DNA of 21,911 bases from positions 1-21,911 of the IMG/VR virus record IMGVR_UViG_3300008116_000610. One strand, 5' to 3'. Within the stretch, counting starts at the first letter, position 1; every line of letters begins with the position of its first letter. Both the position numbers and the translations under genes were made by a program. The notes under the pieces are model-generated. The model did no database searches and was not told the DNA's origin. It saw nothing but the letters and a program-made list of their open reading frames with translations. The stretch comes from a virus. Of this stretch, positions 4,368 through 9,323 are shown one piece after another.

Positions 4368-4483
4368 TAAAAACATTAGACCAATTAATCGGAGAACTTT
4401 ACTTAATTAAAACAAACACAAAAACACATGAAAGAACTCATTTCAATCCAGGCGGAGCTGAAAGCTCCAAAGAATCAGTTTAA
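4355..4483 (+). CDS. Possible 42-residue ORF before the ERF gene
   Basis: A frame beginning MDDLVKTLDQLIGELYLIKT overlaps the end of the previous gene by 13 bases and the ERF gene start by 56 bases in another frame. The first 24 codons look protein-like (amphipathic helix); the rest is read out of frame from the ERF gene and looks arbitrary. It may be a genuine small gene or just a leader of the ERF message. Confidence 0.25.
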   Translation: MDDLVKTLDQLIGELYLIKTNTKTHERTHFNPGGAESSKESV

Positions 4484-4961
4484 CGCATTCGGTAAATACA
4501 AGTACCGATCTTGCGAGGACATCCTAGAGGCTTTAAAGCCCCTTCTGTTGAAGTACGAATGTACTTTGACTATTGAGGATGAGATTAAAGAAGTAGTAGG
4601 TATTGTATTCGTTGAATCTACTGCTGCTATTCAGGTTGATAAAGAAGGTAGAACAGAAGGCAGAGCGGTTACAGCACAGGCTGGCATCGACATCAACCGC
4701 AAGGGTATGGATATAGCCCAGTCGTTCGGGAGCAGCAGCTCATATTCTCGAAAGTATGCACTCTCGGGTCTCCTGTTAATCGATGATACCAAAGACCCTG
4801 ATAGTACAAATGACCATGGTGCAAAAAAGGAAGAGCTTAGTCCAAAGCATCCTAAGTGGCAAGGTGCCAAGGATTCACTAGCTAGTGGAAAAGTAACTAT
4901 TGAGCAGATTAAGGCTGTTTACATTCTTACAGCTGAAAACGAGAAACTTCTACTAGGATGA
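4428..4961 (+). CDS. erf: ERF-family single-strand annealing protein
   Basis: A recombinase of the ERF superfamily, which anneals complementary single strands during phage recombination and replication restart. The 177-residue protein carries the family signature near its N-terminus: ELKAPKNQFNAFGKYKYR followed by SCEDILEALKPLLLKYECTL (about residues 9-46). The glycine-rich middle has QSFGSSSSYSRKYALSGLLLIDD, split across about residues 96-121, matching the conserved SYxRRYaL..LL.i.d block. The C-terminal third is a charged linker and short helical tail. Its stop overlaps the start of the exonuclease gene by four bases, the usual exonuclease-annealase pairing as in lambda Red. It acts in the cytoplasm on resected DNA ends. 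Confidence 0.9.
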   Translation: MKELISIQAELKAPKNQFNAFGKYKYRSCEDILEALKPLLLKYECTLTIEDEIKEVVGIVFVESTAAIQVDKEGRTEGRAVTAQAGIDINRKGMDIAQSFGSSSSYSRKYALSGLLLIDDTKDPDSTNDHGAKKEELSPKHPKWQGAKDSLASGKVTIEQIKAVYILTAENEKLLLG

Positions 4962-5557
4962 ATTTTAAATGCAGAGCAAGTGCCTTGGGTAAGTTAATGA
5001 CTAGCCCAAGGTCTAAGTCTGAAACACTATCTCAGACTACAAAGAGCTACCTAGAGGAATGGGTAAAAGAGCAGATTTACGGAGTTAAGAAGCAGATAAA
5101 TTCTAAGTACTTGCAGAAGGGATTGGCCTTGGAGGATCAGGCTATAGAGTTCTATTCTGTTGCTATGGATAAGGACTTTATGATTAAGAACCTAGACCAC
5201 TTTGAGGATGATTTCTTCACAGGGACTCCTGACTGTATGCACGAGGGTATAGTCTATGACTTCAAGACCTCATGGGACTGCTTTACATTCCCTCTGTTCG
5301 ACCAAGAGCCTGACATGTGGTACTACTATCAGCTCCAGGTTTATATGCACCTGACAGGACTTAGAAAGGCCAAGTTGGTATATACTCTTCAGGATACTCC
5401 TGACTACCTGACTCATGAAGAGCCTGTAAGCTACGCTCATGTAGACAACAGCTATAGAGTAAAAGAGTTTGAGATAGACTATGACCCCATAGTAATTGAG
5501 ACGGCTAAGGCTAAGGTATTGGAGTGTAGGGAATATGTTAAAGAACTACTAGCATGA
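4958..5557 (+). CDS. YqaJ-type PD-(D/E)XK recombination exonuclease
   Basis: A 199-residue nuclease of the lambda-exonuclease/YqaJ fold that degrades one strand of a DNA end and feeds single strands to the annealing protein encoded just before it. Core residues are visible: E59 in QKGLALEDQAIEF, D92 in FFTGTPDC, and D101-x-K103 in VYDFKTSWD. The helix after the core, YYYQLQVYMHLTG (about residues 122-134), carries the conserved QxxxYM pattern. The DxK in place of ExK is normal variation in this superfamily. It overlaps the ERF gene by four bases and the next gene by four bases. The pair forms a complete two-component recombination module. Confidence 0.88.
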   Translation: MNFKCRASALGKLMTSPRSKSETLSQTTKSYLEEWVKEQIYGVKKQINSKYLQKGLALEDQAIEFYSVAMDKDFMIKNLDHFEDDFFTGTPDCMHEGIVYDFKTSWDCFTFPLFDQEPDMWYYYQLQVYMHLTGLRKAKLVYTLQDTPDYLTHEEPVSYAHVDNSYRVKEFEIDYDPIVIETAKAKVLECREYVKELLA

Positions 5558-6271: not shown

Positions 6272-6519
6272 ACTTTATTGAACTAGAAGAAGAGAATATA
6301 GGTAGCCTAGACCTCTCAGTAACCCATATCAAAGATGAAATCTATCAGTTTGCTTTCTACGATAGCTATTGGTATATCGAGGCCCTGGTAGTAAAAAACA
6401 ATAGGAGATTCGACCAAATAGTAAGCTATAAGGTAGAATATGATTCAGTACCTATTAATGGTAATGAACTAGAACGCATTTTAACAAATATACTTGACTA
6501 CTGCAACTACAACTACTAA
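6268..6519 (+). CDS. Small acidic hypothetical protein
   Basis: An 83-residue acidic protein, beta-rich in the middle (ISHIKDEIYQF-like alternation, then YDSYWYIEALVV) with a short helical end (ELERILTNILDY). I recognise no family. It begins inside the previous stop (ATGA) and ends one base before the ATG of the triple-HTH protein. It is likely co-translated with them. Confidence 0.65.
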   Translation: MNFIELEEENIGSLDLSVTHIKDEIYQFAFYDSYWYIEALVVKNNRRFDQIVSYKVEYDSVPINGNELERILTNILDYCNYNY

Positions 6520-6520
6520 C

Positions 6521-6976
6521 ATGACATCACTAACACAGGAACAGAAAGACGAAATAGTAAGACTTTACAAGCTAAAGGTACTTAACAAGAACATCGCAAC
6601 GATTATAGGCATTTCTAGGGGCGTGGTAAACAACTTTCTCTACAAGGAATACCTAAAGACCAATGAGCGATCTAAGAACAACTCAGCACATCTTAAATTA
6701 GCTGACGAGGTAATTGAAATGTACAAGAACGATTACCCTTACAAGCAGATTTCAGAACGTACTGGACTAGCACATCATCAAATCTGTGACATCCTAAAGC
6801 TGACTACCTATCGTAGGCGGCAAGGAATAACAATAAAAAATCTTAGAGAAGTGCAACGATTATGGGAGGAAGGATACAAAATAGCTAACATTTCTTACAA
6901 GCTAGATGTACCATACGGACAGGTTCAGTACTGGGTTCGCAAGATCCGTACAGGGGTGTACACAAGTGTACACTAA
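6521..6976 (+). CDS. Protein with three tandem helix-turn-helix units; candidate origin binder
   Basis: A 151-residue basic DNA-binding protein built from three Hin/resolvase-like helix-turn-helix units: residues 5-40 (NIATIIGISRGVVNNFL), 58-93 (KQISERTGLAHHQICDIL) and 106-142 (ANISYKLDVPYGQVQYWV). There is no catalytic domain, so it is not a recombinase. The ATG at 6521 is chosen over an upstream TTG at 6494, which would add a low-complexity Thr run. Its last codons lie inside the left repeat array (6956-6996), and the primase/helicase follows the intervening non-coding region. Three DNA-reading modules beside 10-11-base phased repeats suggest that it binds them, as an initiator or autoregulator; this is inference from layout. 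Confidence 0.7.
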   Translation: MTSLTQEQKDEIVRLYKLKVLNKNIATIIGISRGVVNNFLYKEYLKTNERSKNNSAHLKLADEVIEMYKNDYPYKQISERTGLAHHQICDILKLTTYRRRQGITIKNLREVQRLWEEGYKIANISYKLDVPYGQVQYWVRKIRTGVYTSVH

Positions 6977-6996
6977 GTGTACACTAAGTGTAAACT
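6956..6996. repeat. Left phased repeat array, unit GTGTACAC
   Basis: Four copies of the palindrome GTGTACAC (last one GTGTAAAC) start at 6956, 6966, 6977 and 6988, that is at 10, 11 and 11 bases, placing all copies on the same face of the helix. The unit extends to AAGTGTACACT in the last three copies. The array overlaps the last codons and the stop of the triple-HTH gene. Confidence 0.85.
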
Positions 6997-7271
6997 AAAA
7001 TCGGCCTCCATTGGCTCCAATCGCAATAAGTGAACACTTTGAACACTTTTTGGGAAAAATGAAAAAAAATAAATTTCTAGGTGGTAAAAAAAAACACTTT
7101 AACAAAAAAAGTGTAAACTTGTAAACCTAAGCCAAAAAAGTGCTAAAAATCGGTCAAATTAAAGCGTGTAAGCGGTTTTAGGGGTTTACACTACACTGTA
7201 CACTTAGTGTAAACTTAGTGTACACTTTTTGCCAAAAATAGCCCATTTTCTACAAACACTTGTAAAAACAC
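6977..7271. other. Candidate replication origin (non-coding, AT-rich, two repeat arrays)
   Basis: The 295 bases before the primase/helicase gene hold no supportable gene. They are framed by two arrays of the same palindromic unit (6956-6996 and 7184-7226). Looser copies lie between (GTGAACAC 7030-7037, TTGAACAC 7039-7046, GTGTAAAC 7111-7118, TTGTAAAC 7119-7126), set in A/T-rich tracts (about 7055-7110) that would melt easily. Iterons plus an AT-rich unwinding element next to a helicase gene and a DNA-binding protein gene are the classical origin layout. A complex operator for the downstream replication operon is the alternative. Confidence 0.6.
7184..7226. repeat. Right phased repeat array, unit GTGTACAC
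   Basis: Four copies start at 7184 (GTTTACAC), 7196 (CTGTACAC), 7207 (GTGTAAAC) and 7218 (GTGTACAC), spaced 12, 11 and 11 bases. It mirrors the left array about 190 bases away: the outermost copies are nearest to consensus on both sides. It ends 45 bases before the primase/helicase start. Confidence 0.85.
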
Positions 7272-9323
7272 ATGAACGTCACTTTAGGAAGAGCAATCAA
7301 CTTATTGAACGCTGGCTTCAGCGTAATGCCCATATCAGAAGGGAAGAAACCACTGATTTTATGGAAGGAATACCAGACCAAAAAGATAGAAAAAGCCGAG
7401 TTAGAACGGCTAGAGTCTAAAACCAAAGGTTATGGTATTATAACAGGATTTTATGGTACTGAATGTATAGACATAGACCTAAAAGTATTCCCTAGTGTAC
7501 AAGAGGGTAAGAAATTTTGGAATGAGTTTATCGCATTTACAGGTGGATACATTTACATCTACGATAATCAGGTGAGCGAATTGTCTTATGAGCAAGTCCA
7601 GGAGATTACCCCTGAAGAGCGTGATCTGTTGATGAATCTATGTAAGTATTTTCATTATGAGGAGAGGGTAGATGAAACGAGGCCAAAAGAGGCCGATTAC
7701 AGCGGTCTAACACCTTGGGATGACTATAACCATAGGAACAAGGCATTGGACCTCTTACAAGGCGAATTTAGTGCCATTAAGCACCTATCTGATCGTATAG
7801 TTCTACGCAAGATAGAAAGCAAGGATGCTCTGCATGGATTTATCTACAAGGACACAGGTCTATGCTACCTGTTTACTACTGCAACTATTTACCCACATGA
7901 GACACCGCTTAGTCCATTTGCTATCTATGCTTGGAAGTTCTTTAGTGGAAATTACTCTGATGCTGCTAGAGAATTGTATAAGGAAGGATATGGTGAACGC
8001 AAGATTAAGAAGGTAGAGATTGAGCGAATCGAGATTCCCAAGGAAGAGCTGATATTTCCGCTAGAAGTGTTTCCTGAGTCATTACAAAATTATATTCTGT
8101 TAAATCAGAAAACCTTAAATCATTCTATTGACTACATGGGTTGCTCTTTACTTTGGTACATTTCTATATCTATTGGTAACAGCTGCAAGGTGCAGGTCAA
8201 AACAGGATGGAGAGAGTCGGTAAACATTTGGCTAGGATTAATCGGTAAGGCAGGTCTAGGTAAGACTCCTAGTATAAATGCAGTCATATTCCCATTGGCT
8301 AAGAAGAATAGTTTTGAGATTAAGCACTATCAGAACGAATACAAGAAGTACAAGGAATATGAGAAGCTATCTACCAAGGATAAGAAAGATGTGGAGGAGG
8401 TTAAAGAACCTGTTAGAAAGCAGATTATTGTTAACGATGTAACTGTGGAGGCATTGGCGGATCTACACGAGGAGAACGCAGTAGGTATTGCAGTATTTAA
8501 GGATGAGCTTAATGGTTGGATTAAGGACATGAACAAGTACAAACCTGGCTCTGACCTAGAGTTTTGGCTGTCATGTTGGTCTAATCAGGAGGCTATTATG
8601 ACTAGAAAGACTGCAAAGAGTAGCTTTATTCAGTCGCCATTGATTCCTGTTCTTGGAGGCATACAGCCTGGAATCTTCTCACAGATTTCTACCTTGGAGA
8701 ACAAGGACAATGGATTCCTAGATAGATTACTTGTCTGCTACCCTGACAAGGACATTGAGCATTACAACAGAAATGCAATAGATCAGGAAGTATTGGATTG
8801 GTACGAGGCTTATATGTCGCAGTTCTATAACCTGATTAGGAAAGATGTGTTGCAGTTTAATAAGTTTGGAGAGATTGAGCCTAGAGTTATTAGGTTTGAT
8901 TCTGAGGCAGAGCATGAATGGGAAAGGATATTCAACAACATTACAGACATGCAGAACTCAGATGATATTTCTGAGTATGTAAAGTCTATGTTGAGTAAGC
9001 AGAAGGCTTACATTCCTAGATTCGCTCTGATTATTAACTCCATTACTGCTTACAATACTTCTAGCGGTTTTGATTGGGTAAGCAAGGATAGTCTTTTAAA
9101 GGCAGAGAAGTTAAGTAACTACTTTATTGCGATGTCTAAGAAGATTAAGGTGAACTCATTGGAAAGCTCTGAGCTAAATGAGTTGGTTCGCTCATTAAAG
9201 AATGAGTCGATAGAAAGAAAGATACAGCAGATTCAGGAAGCCATCCCTGACTTTAATAGGTCAGAACTTGCCGAGATGCTAAATGTTAGTAGAACAACGA
9301 TATATAAACACTTGAAGAAATGA
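7272..9323 (+). CDS. Primase-like/DUF3987 replicative helicase with shortened Prim-Pol domain
   Basis: A 683-residue replication protein. The N-terminus resembles bifunctional primase-polymerase domains (GFSVMPISEGKKPL, residues 15-28; GYGIITG, 53-59; CIDIDLK with metal-binding D67/D69). The block that normally follows, with the conserved histidine motif, is absent: from FWNEFIAF (82-89) the sequence jumps to GGYIYIYD (91-98) and ITPEERDLL (112-120), then GLTPWDDYN (145-153). The second half is a DUF3987 ATPase/helicase: Walker A GKAGLGKT (325-332), Walker B FKDE (D411, E412), GGIQPGIF and the DNGFLDRLLVCYPD arginine region. A C-terminal helix-turn-helix (RSELAEMLNVSRTTIYKHL) ends the protein. 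It follows the candidate origin and would unwind DNA there; priming activity is doubtful. Confidence 0.85.
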   Translation: MNVTLGRAINLLNAGFSVMPISEGKKPLILWKEYQTKKIEKAELERLESKTKGYGIITGFYGTECIDIDLKVFPSVQEGKKFWNEFIAFTGGYIYIYDNQVSELSYEQVQEITPEERDLLMNLCKYFHYEERVDETRPKEADYSGLTPWDDYNHRNKALDLLQGEFSAIKHLSDRIVLRKIESKDALHGFIYKDTGLCYLFTTATIYPHETPLSPFAIYAWKFFSGNYSDAARELYKEGYGERKIKKVEIERIEIPKEELIFPLEVFPESLQNYILLNQKTLNHSIDYMGCSLLWYISISIGNSCKVQVKTGWRESVNIWLGLIGKAGLGKTPSINAVIFPLAKKNSFEIKHYQNEYKKYKEYEKLSTKDKKDVEEVKEPVRKQIIVNDVTVEALADLHEENAVGIAVFKDELNGWIKDMNKYKPGSDLEFWLSCWSNQEAIMTRKTAKSSFIQSPLIPVLGGIQPGIFSQISTLENKDNGFLDRLLVCYPDKDIEHYNRNAIDQEVLDWYEAYMSQFYNLIRKDVLQFNKFGEIEPRVIRFDSEAEHEWERIFNNITDMQNSDDISEYVKSMLSKQKAYIPRFALIINSITAYNTSSGFDWVSKDSLLKAEKLSNYFIAMSKKIKVNSLESSELNELVRSLKNESIERKIQQIQEAIPDFNRSELAEMLNVSRTTIYKHLKK

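Follow-up and report, generated by a model that had tools for sequence, protein, structure and literature searches.

Introduction

The described systems closest to the locus analysed here are the replication origins of SaPI/PICI elements, in which two sets of iterons flank an AT-rich region beside the initiator gene (PMC6092414; PMC7581432). The initiator, SaPI Rep, is a helicase whose C-terminal domain recognises the iterons (PMC7581432). In phage P4, the alpha protein fuses a primase, a helicase and an origin-binding domain and binds repeats (PMC4234260; PMC7145576). For DUF3987 itself, the available portion of Kazlauskas et al. 2018 predicts a novel helicase and regards the C-terminal winged helix (WH) of PrimQH proteins as possibly involved in origin recognition (PMC5862659); within that portion the word "iteron" does not occur, and no site or repeat code is given.

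Here we analyse a 21,911-nt stretch of viral DNA (IMG/VR record IMGVR_UViG_3300008116_000610, positions 1 to 21,911; hereafter the window). Judging from comparative sequence analysis, positions 6956-7225 are very probably a phage replication origin, to which the PrimPol-DUF3987 primase-helicase encoded next to it would bind through its C-terminal HTH. The features of the locus are as follows.

6494..6976, plus strand: multi-HTH (triple-HTH) protein gene, a clade-specific neighbour that is constant in the window clade
6956..6995, no strand assigned: left outer array of 4 phased sites (6956, 6966, 6977, 6988), conserved in relatives and overlapping the last codons of the triple-HTH gene
7030..7046, no strand assigned: left inner pair (GTGAACAC, TTGAACAC), with counterparts in distant families
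7047..7110, no strand assigned: A+T-rich core (81% AT), presumed melting region
7111..7126, no strand assigned: right inner pair (GTGTAAAC, TTGTAAAC), with counterparts in distant families
7184..7225, no strand assigned: right outer array of 4 phased sites (7184, 7196, 7207, 7218), conserved in relatives
7272..9323, plus strand: PrimPol-DUF3987 primase-helicase of 683 aa, proposed initiator (homologue structure model, PDB fold match)
9288..9317, plus strand: SRTTIYKHLK, recognition helix of the C-terminal HTH and the element proposed to read the origin (co-variation and blind prediction)

As in SaPI/PICI origins, two iteron sets flank an AT-rich region, and the array adjoins the gene of the proposed initiator helicase (89/90 loci surveyed and 31/33 new loci). 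Because SaPI/PICI origins share this ground plan, the array layout is not unprecedented. Several features differ. SaPI-type origins lie immediately 3' of the initiator gene, whereas the array here lies 5' in the window clade and 3' in 46/90 loci; the SaPI Rep families carry DUF927 or Primase_Cterm/D5, whereas the ATPase here is DUF3987; and the arrays described here were found in virus contigs, contain inner site pairs and follow a readable residue-to-base rule.

The proposed initiator resembles P4 alpha, as far as domain resemblance goes, in its fused primase, helicase and DNA-binding domain, but the P4 primase is of the TOPRIM type and the one here is a PrimPol (AEP). In pRN1, ORF904 likewise unites a PrimPol, a helicase and a winged helix at the C-terminus, and its PrimPol is the best fold match here; its origin, however, is a large stem-loop without iterons rather than a pair of iteron arrays. 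Repeats and an AT-rich melting region also recall the origins of iteron plasmids and lambda O, where the initiator is not a helicase and the helicase is loaded separately, whereas the initiator proposed here is itself a helicase. Finally, our proposal agrees with what was predicted for PrimQH/All3500-type primases with DUF3987, namely a helicase and a WH possibly involved in origin recognition.

Repeat arrays in the window

The first-pass annotation had placed eight copies of one unit, four on each side, around an AT-rich gap. All eight are present at those positions, but only half are exact: GTGTACAC occurs at 6956, 6966, 6977 and 7218, and each of the remaining four differs from it by one mismatch (GTGTAAAC at 6988 and 7207, GTTTACAC at 7184, CTGTACAC at 7196). 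Start-to-start spacings of 10, 11 and 11 in the left outer array and 12, 11 and 11 in the right bear out the helical phasing of 10-12 bases that had been proposed. Sequences with up to one mismatch to GTGTACAC occur 12 times in the window. Ten of these occurrences fall within 270 bp, whereas 5.8 would be expected over all 21.9 kb. Looser copies between the arrays, also claimed initially, are indeed there and are more precisely two tight pairs, 7030+7039 and 7111+7119. The overall layout is thus 4-2-AT core-2-4, or twelve sites arranged 6+6, around a core of 64 bp (7047-7110) that is 81% A+T compared with 61% for the window. No Rfam family was found in the window or in the seven relatives searched. 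Further upstream, at 4428-5557, the window encodes an ERF single-strand annealing protein followed by a phage exonuclease (phrog_5715).

Mean pairwise identity over the block 6956-7228 is 0.885 in 51 dereplicated relatives from IMG/VR, compared with 0.84-0.85 at second and 0.52-0.56 at third codon positions of the flanking genes. The noncoding array block is more constrained than the second codon positions of its neighbours.

Arrays in relatives

The first-pass annotation had made its reading depend on the presence of the arrays upstream of the helicase in close relatives, a test that the relatives pass. Three relatives with end repeats of 123-127 bp, as in circular assemblies, each contain the double array once. 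In L078, L081 and L313 the layout is kept with different units (GTGTAAACC, GTGTAACC and GTGTAAAA, respectively), and arrays of other DUF3987 phages are built from GTTTAAA, GTTCAAA, GTTCACA, GTTGCAA, GTGTGAA, TGTAAC, TGTGAC, TGCGCA or TGCACA. In a survey of 90 loci, the window included, for which the fetched stretches were mostly ~10 kb, the best phased array lay within 1 kb of the DUF3987 gene in 89/90, against an expected ~0.32. The array is upstream of that gene in 43 loci, as in the window and its clade, and downstream in 46, where it mostly starts within ~15 nt of the helicase stop codon. Outer groups of 3-5 sites and inner groups of 2-3 are found in most loci, with spacings that peak at 10 and 11 bp. 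Among 33 new loci, the array was absent beside the helicase gene in two. Five loci with relatives were recovered from MAGs, all of them Bacteroidota, and we take the phages to be a family that infects Bacteroidota bacteria.

Co-variation of the repeat unit with the helicase

We compared array motifs and helicase sequences in 54 helicases dereplicated at 90% body identity. With body distance removed, array-motif distance correlated with recognition-helix distance at a partial r of 0.617, the maximum of 5,000 permutations being 0.19. Of 710 ten-column windows covering the whole protein, the one that scored highest was exactly the recognition helix of the C-terminal HTH; outside the HTH, no window exceeded 0.36. 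In the unit frame p1-p6 (T[G/T]T[A/G]A[A/C]), units carry G at p2 where helix position 2 is Arg (33/33, versus 2/21 without Arg; Fisher p 1e-12), G at p4 where position 3 is Arg (12/12 versus 1/42; p 4e-11), and C at p6 where position 7 is Arg (9/9 versus 3/45; p 4e-8). Positions 2, 3 and 7 changed residue 7, 10 and 6 times on the body tree, and on average 4.5, 7 and 5 phylogenetically independent pairs, respectively, showed the base following the residue, with none in the opposite direction.

The ten repeat classes and the reading frame were set after the first data set had been viewed. For this reason, the rules were fixed in writing before new loci were fetched and tested, and this blind test alone is out of sample. 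The unit was predicted exactly in 20/26 new phages, compared with 8/26 for the nearest body relative (permutation p <= 5e-5), and in 19/24 of those whose helices had not been seen before. Three of the 26 lack a clear unit in the ten classes (L475 and L407, scored as hits, and L430, scored as a miss); with clear units only, 18/23 were correct and 5/23 mispredicted. In four of these five clear misses, an SRK-type helix lacks Arg 7 yet reads C at p6 (in one case G at p4 as well); the fifth reads C at p5. The residue-to-base rule set is therefore incomplete, and Lys at helix position 3 is the obvious next term. Three amino-acid positions of the helicase largely predict each virus's repeat unit.

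Phased repeat arrays also occur at partition sites, and the arrays might instead serve segregation or packaging, as a centromere-like or pac/cos site. We consider this extremely unlikely, given that the array sequence co-varies with the helicase and adjoins its gene, and that none of the window proteins searched was recognised as a partition protein.

The primase-helicase

The window helicase matches Pfam DUF3987 (E=8e-55) and has no DUF927 or D5 match in Pfam. A structure model of the L004 homologue (mean pLDDT 82) has a PrimPol fold like that of pRN1 ORF904 (1rni, Foldseek E 4e-7), and its DUF3987 ATPase part gives weak MCM/E1-like matches; a PDB sequence search returned no convincing solved relative of the DUF3987 part. 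On the basis of domain resemblance, primase, helicase and DNA-binding domains would be fused in one protein. In the window helicase, an in-frame gap at 7538/7539 removes 52 aa of the PrimPol domain that are present in all relatives covering the region, a point against the proposed initiator role. The missing residues include SGYH and ETRG, which are probably catalytic, and the gap may be either a natural deletion or an assembly error.

The triple-HTH gene

The triple-HTH protein had been the binder favoured in the first-pass annotation. Its gene has no homologue at E<=1e-3 in any of 18 distant array-bearing genomes (several of 35-41 kb, with some records possibly incomplete), and the protein has no relative in the phage collection. 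It is therefore not a general binder of the arrays, and the binder now proposed in its place is the helicase, whose own HTH predicts the repeat sequence. The triple-HTH protein may still have a local role in the window clade. In L313, the place of the window's HTH gene is occupied by an SNF2-methyltransferase-like gene; this single 721-aa ORF (L313:1472-3637), directly before the array, looks on reading like a fused SNF2-type helicase and DNA methyltransferase.

The palindromic, phased sites would suit repressors, and in the window they sit between an HTH gene, constant throughout the clade, and the start of the helicase gene. The arrays could thus be operators only, bound by the triple-HTH protein or the helicase to regulate the primase-helicase operon, with the origin elsewhere. 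This is very unlikely for several reasons: the HTH protein is missing from all 18 distant genomes, the repeat is predicted by the helicase helix, and several relatives with upstream arrays have a TAnnTTTG promoter between array and gene. Moreover, in the 46 loci where the array lies past the helicase stop codon, it cannot control that gene's promoter.

Compatible with an origin, and less improbable, is a dual use: the helicase would bind the origin, and the triple-HTH protein, specific to the clade, would act as a co-binder or repressor at these sites or on DNA next to them. The left array overlaps the 3' end of the HTH gene, L078 and L081 likewise have multi-HTH proteins ahead of their arrays (by reading), and in pRN1 a repressor gene accompanies that of the PrimPol-helicase (PMC4234260). 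Yet the sequences carry no sign of the HTH protein reading the sites, the unit being too uniform in the clade to tell, and we regard such an arrangement as rather unlikely.

GC skew

Raw cumulative GC skew follows gene strand and has no switch at 7.1 kb. A strand-plus-replichore model gave a positive replichore term at the array for each of the eight genomes, with the optimum -4.5 to +7 kb from the array. Third-position skew is lower to the left than to the right of the array in 9/9 genomes, a difference that is suggestive only because the genomes are related. Once corrected for strand, the skew is compatible with an origin in the early block and gives no position for it; as a whole, GC skew is uninformative, neither supporting, refuting nor localising the origin. 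The support for the origin first called in this interval is instead comparative, coming from arrays that are single-copy in circular relatives, lie beside the primase-helicase gene and co-vary with the DNA-binding helix of its product.

Proposed mechanism and relation to known origins

In the mechanism we propose, the C-terminal HTHs of helicase subunits would occupy the repeats, six sites per side. Helicase subunits would gather at the 6+6 sites, of which the outer ones are in helical register, on both flanks of the AT-rich core, where one helicase ring probably forms per side. The core may then melt, the same primase-helicase protein would unwind and prime, and replication would start bidirectionally.

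The working principle, a helicase initiator that reads its origin with a C-terminal domain, is already known from the SaPI literature. Our additions are the phage family, how its arrays are built, their placement 5' or 3' of the gene, and the residue-to-base code. Set against the open-access literature, the ground plan in DUF3987 phages and the readable repeat code appear to be new, and an earlier description elsewhere is possible. We suggest, tentatively and with more doubt than belief, that these arrays form a widespread origin class of their own in DUF3987 phages, with one ring per side (one site per subunit), the array before or after the gene, and a three-residue helix code that would enable repeated lineage switches to mutually incompatible origins.

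Phages of a large family, diverse in sequence and with another type of helicase, are now found to share a SaPI/PICI-like ground plan, and DUF3987, which Pfam still lists as a domain of unknown function, gains a specific predicted role as an origin-reading initiator. In uncultured phages the origin becomes findable and its repeat largely predictable from protein sequence, and the joint change of specificity in initiator and origin becomes a testable question.

Other elements near the helicase gene

In L029, nine CCACTA repeats form an unphased cluster of their own within ~320 bp, ~3.6 kb upstream of the helicase gene. In other loci, the helicase gene is preceded by an 80-90 nt leader that begins shortly 3' of a TAnnTTTG promoter and ends in a T run. 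Its arms, which vary in sequence between lineages, are ordered A-B-A'-B' (pseudoknot type). Neither the window nor any of four window-clade genomes scanned contains the leader, which had no Rfam match in the seven loci searched. It occurs in 23/54 loci (28 hits; mean of 0 in shuffled sequence), among them L317, L319, L316, L321, L339, L343, L346, L348, L353, L365, L366, L367, L368, L374, L375 and L378, and a few copies precede other genes (L396 +4680, L316 +4025, L353 -3703).
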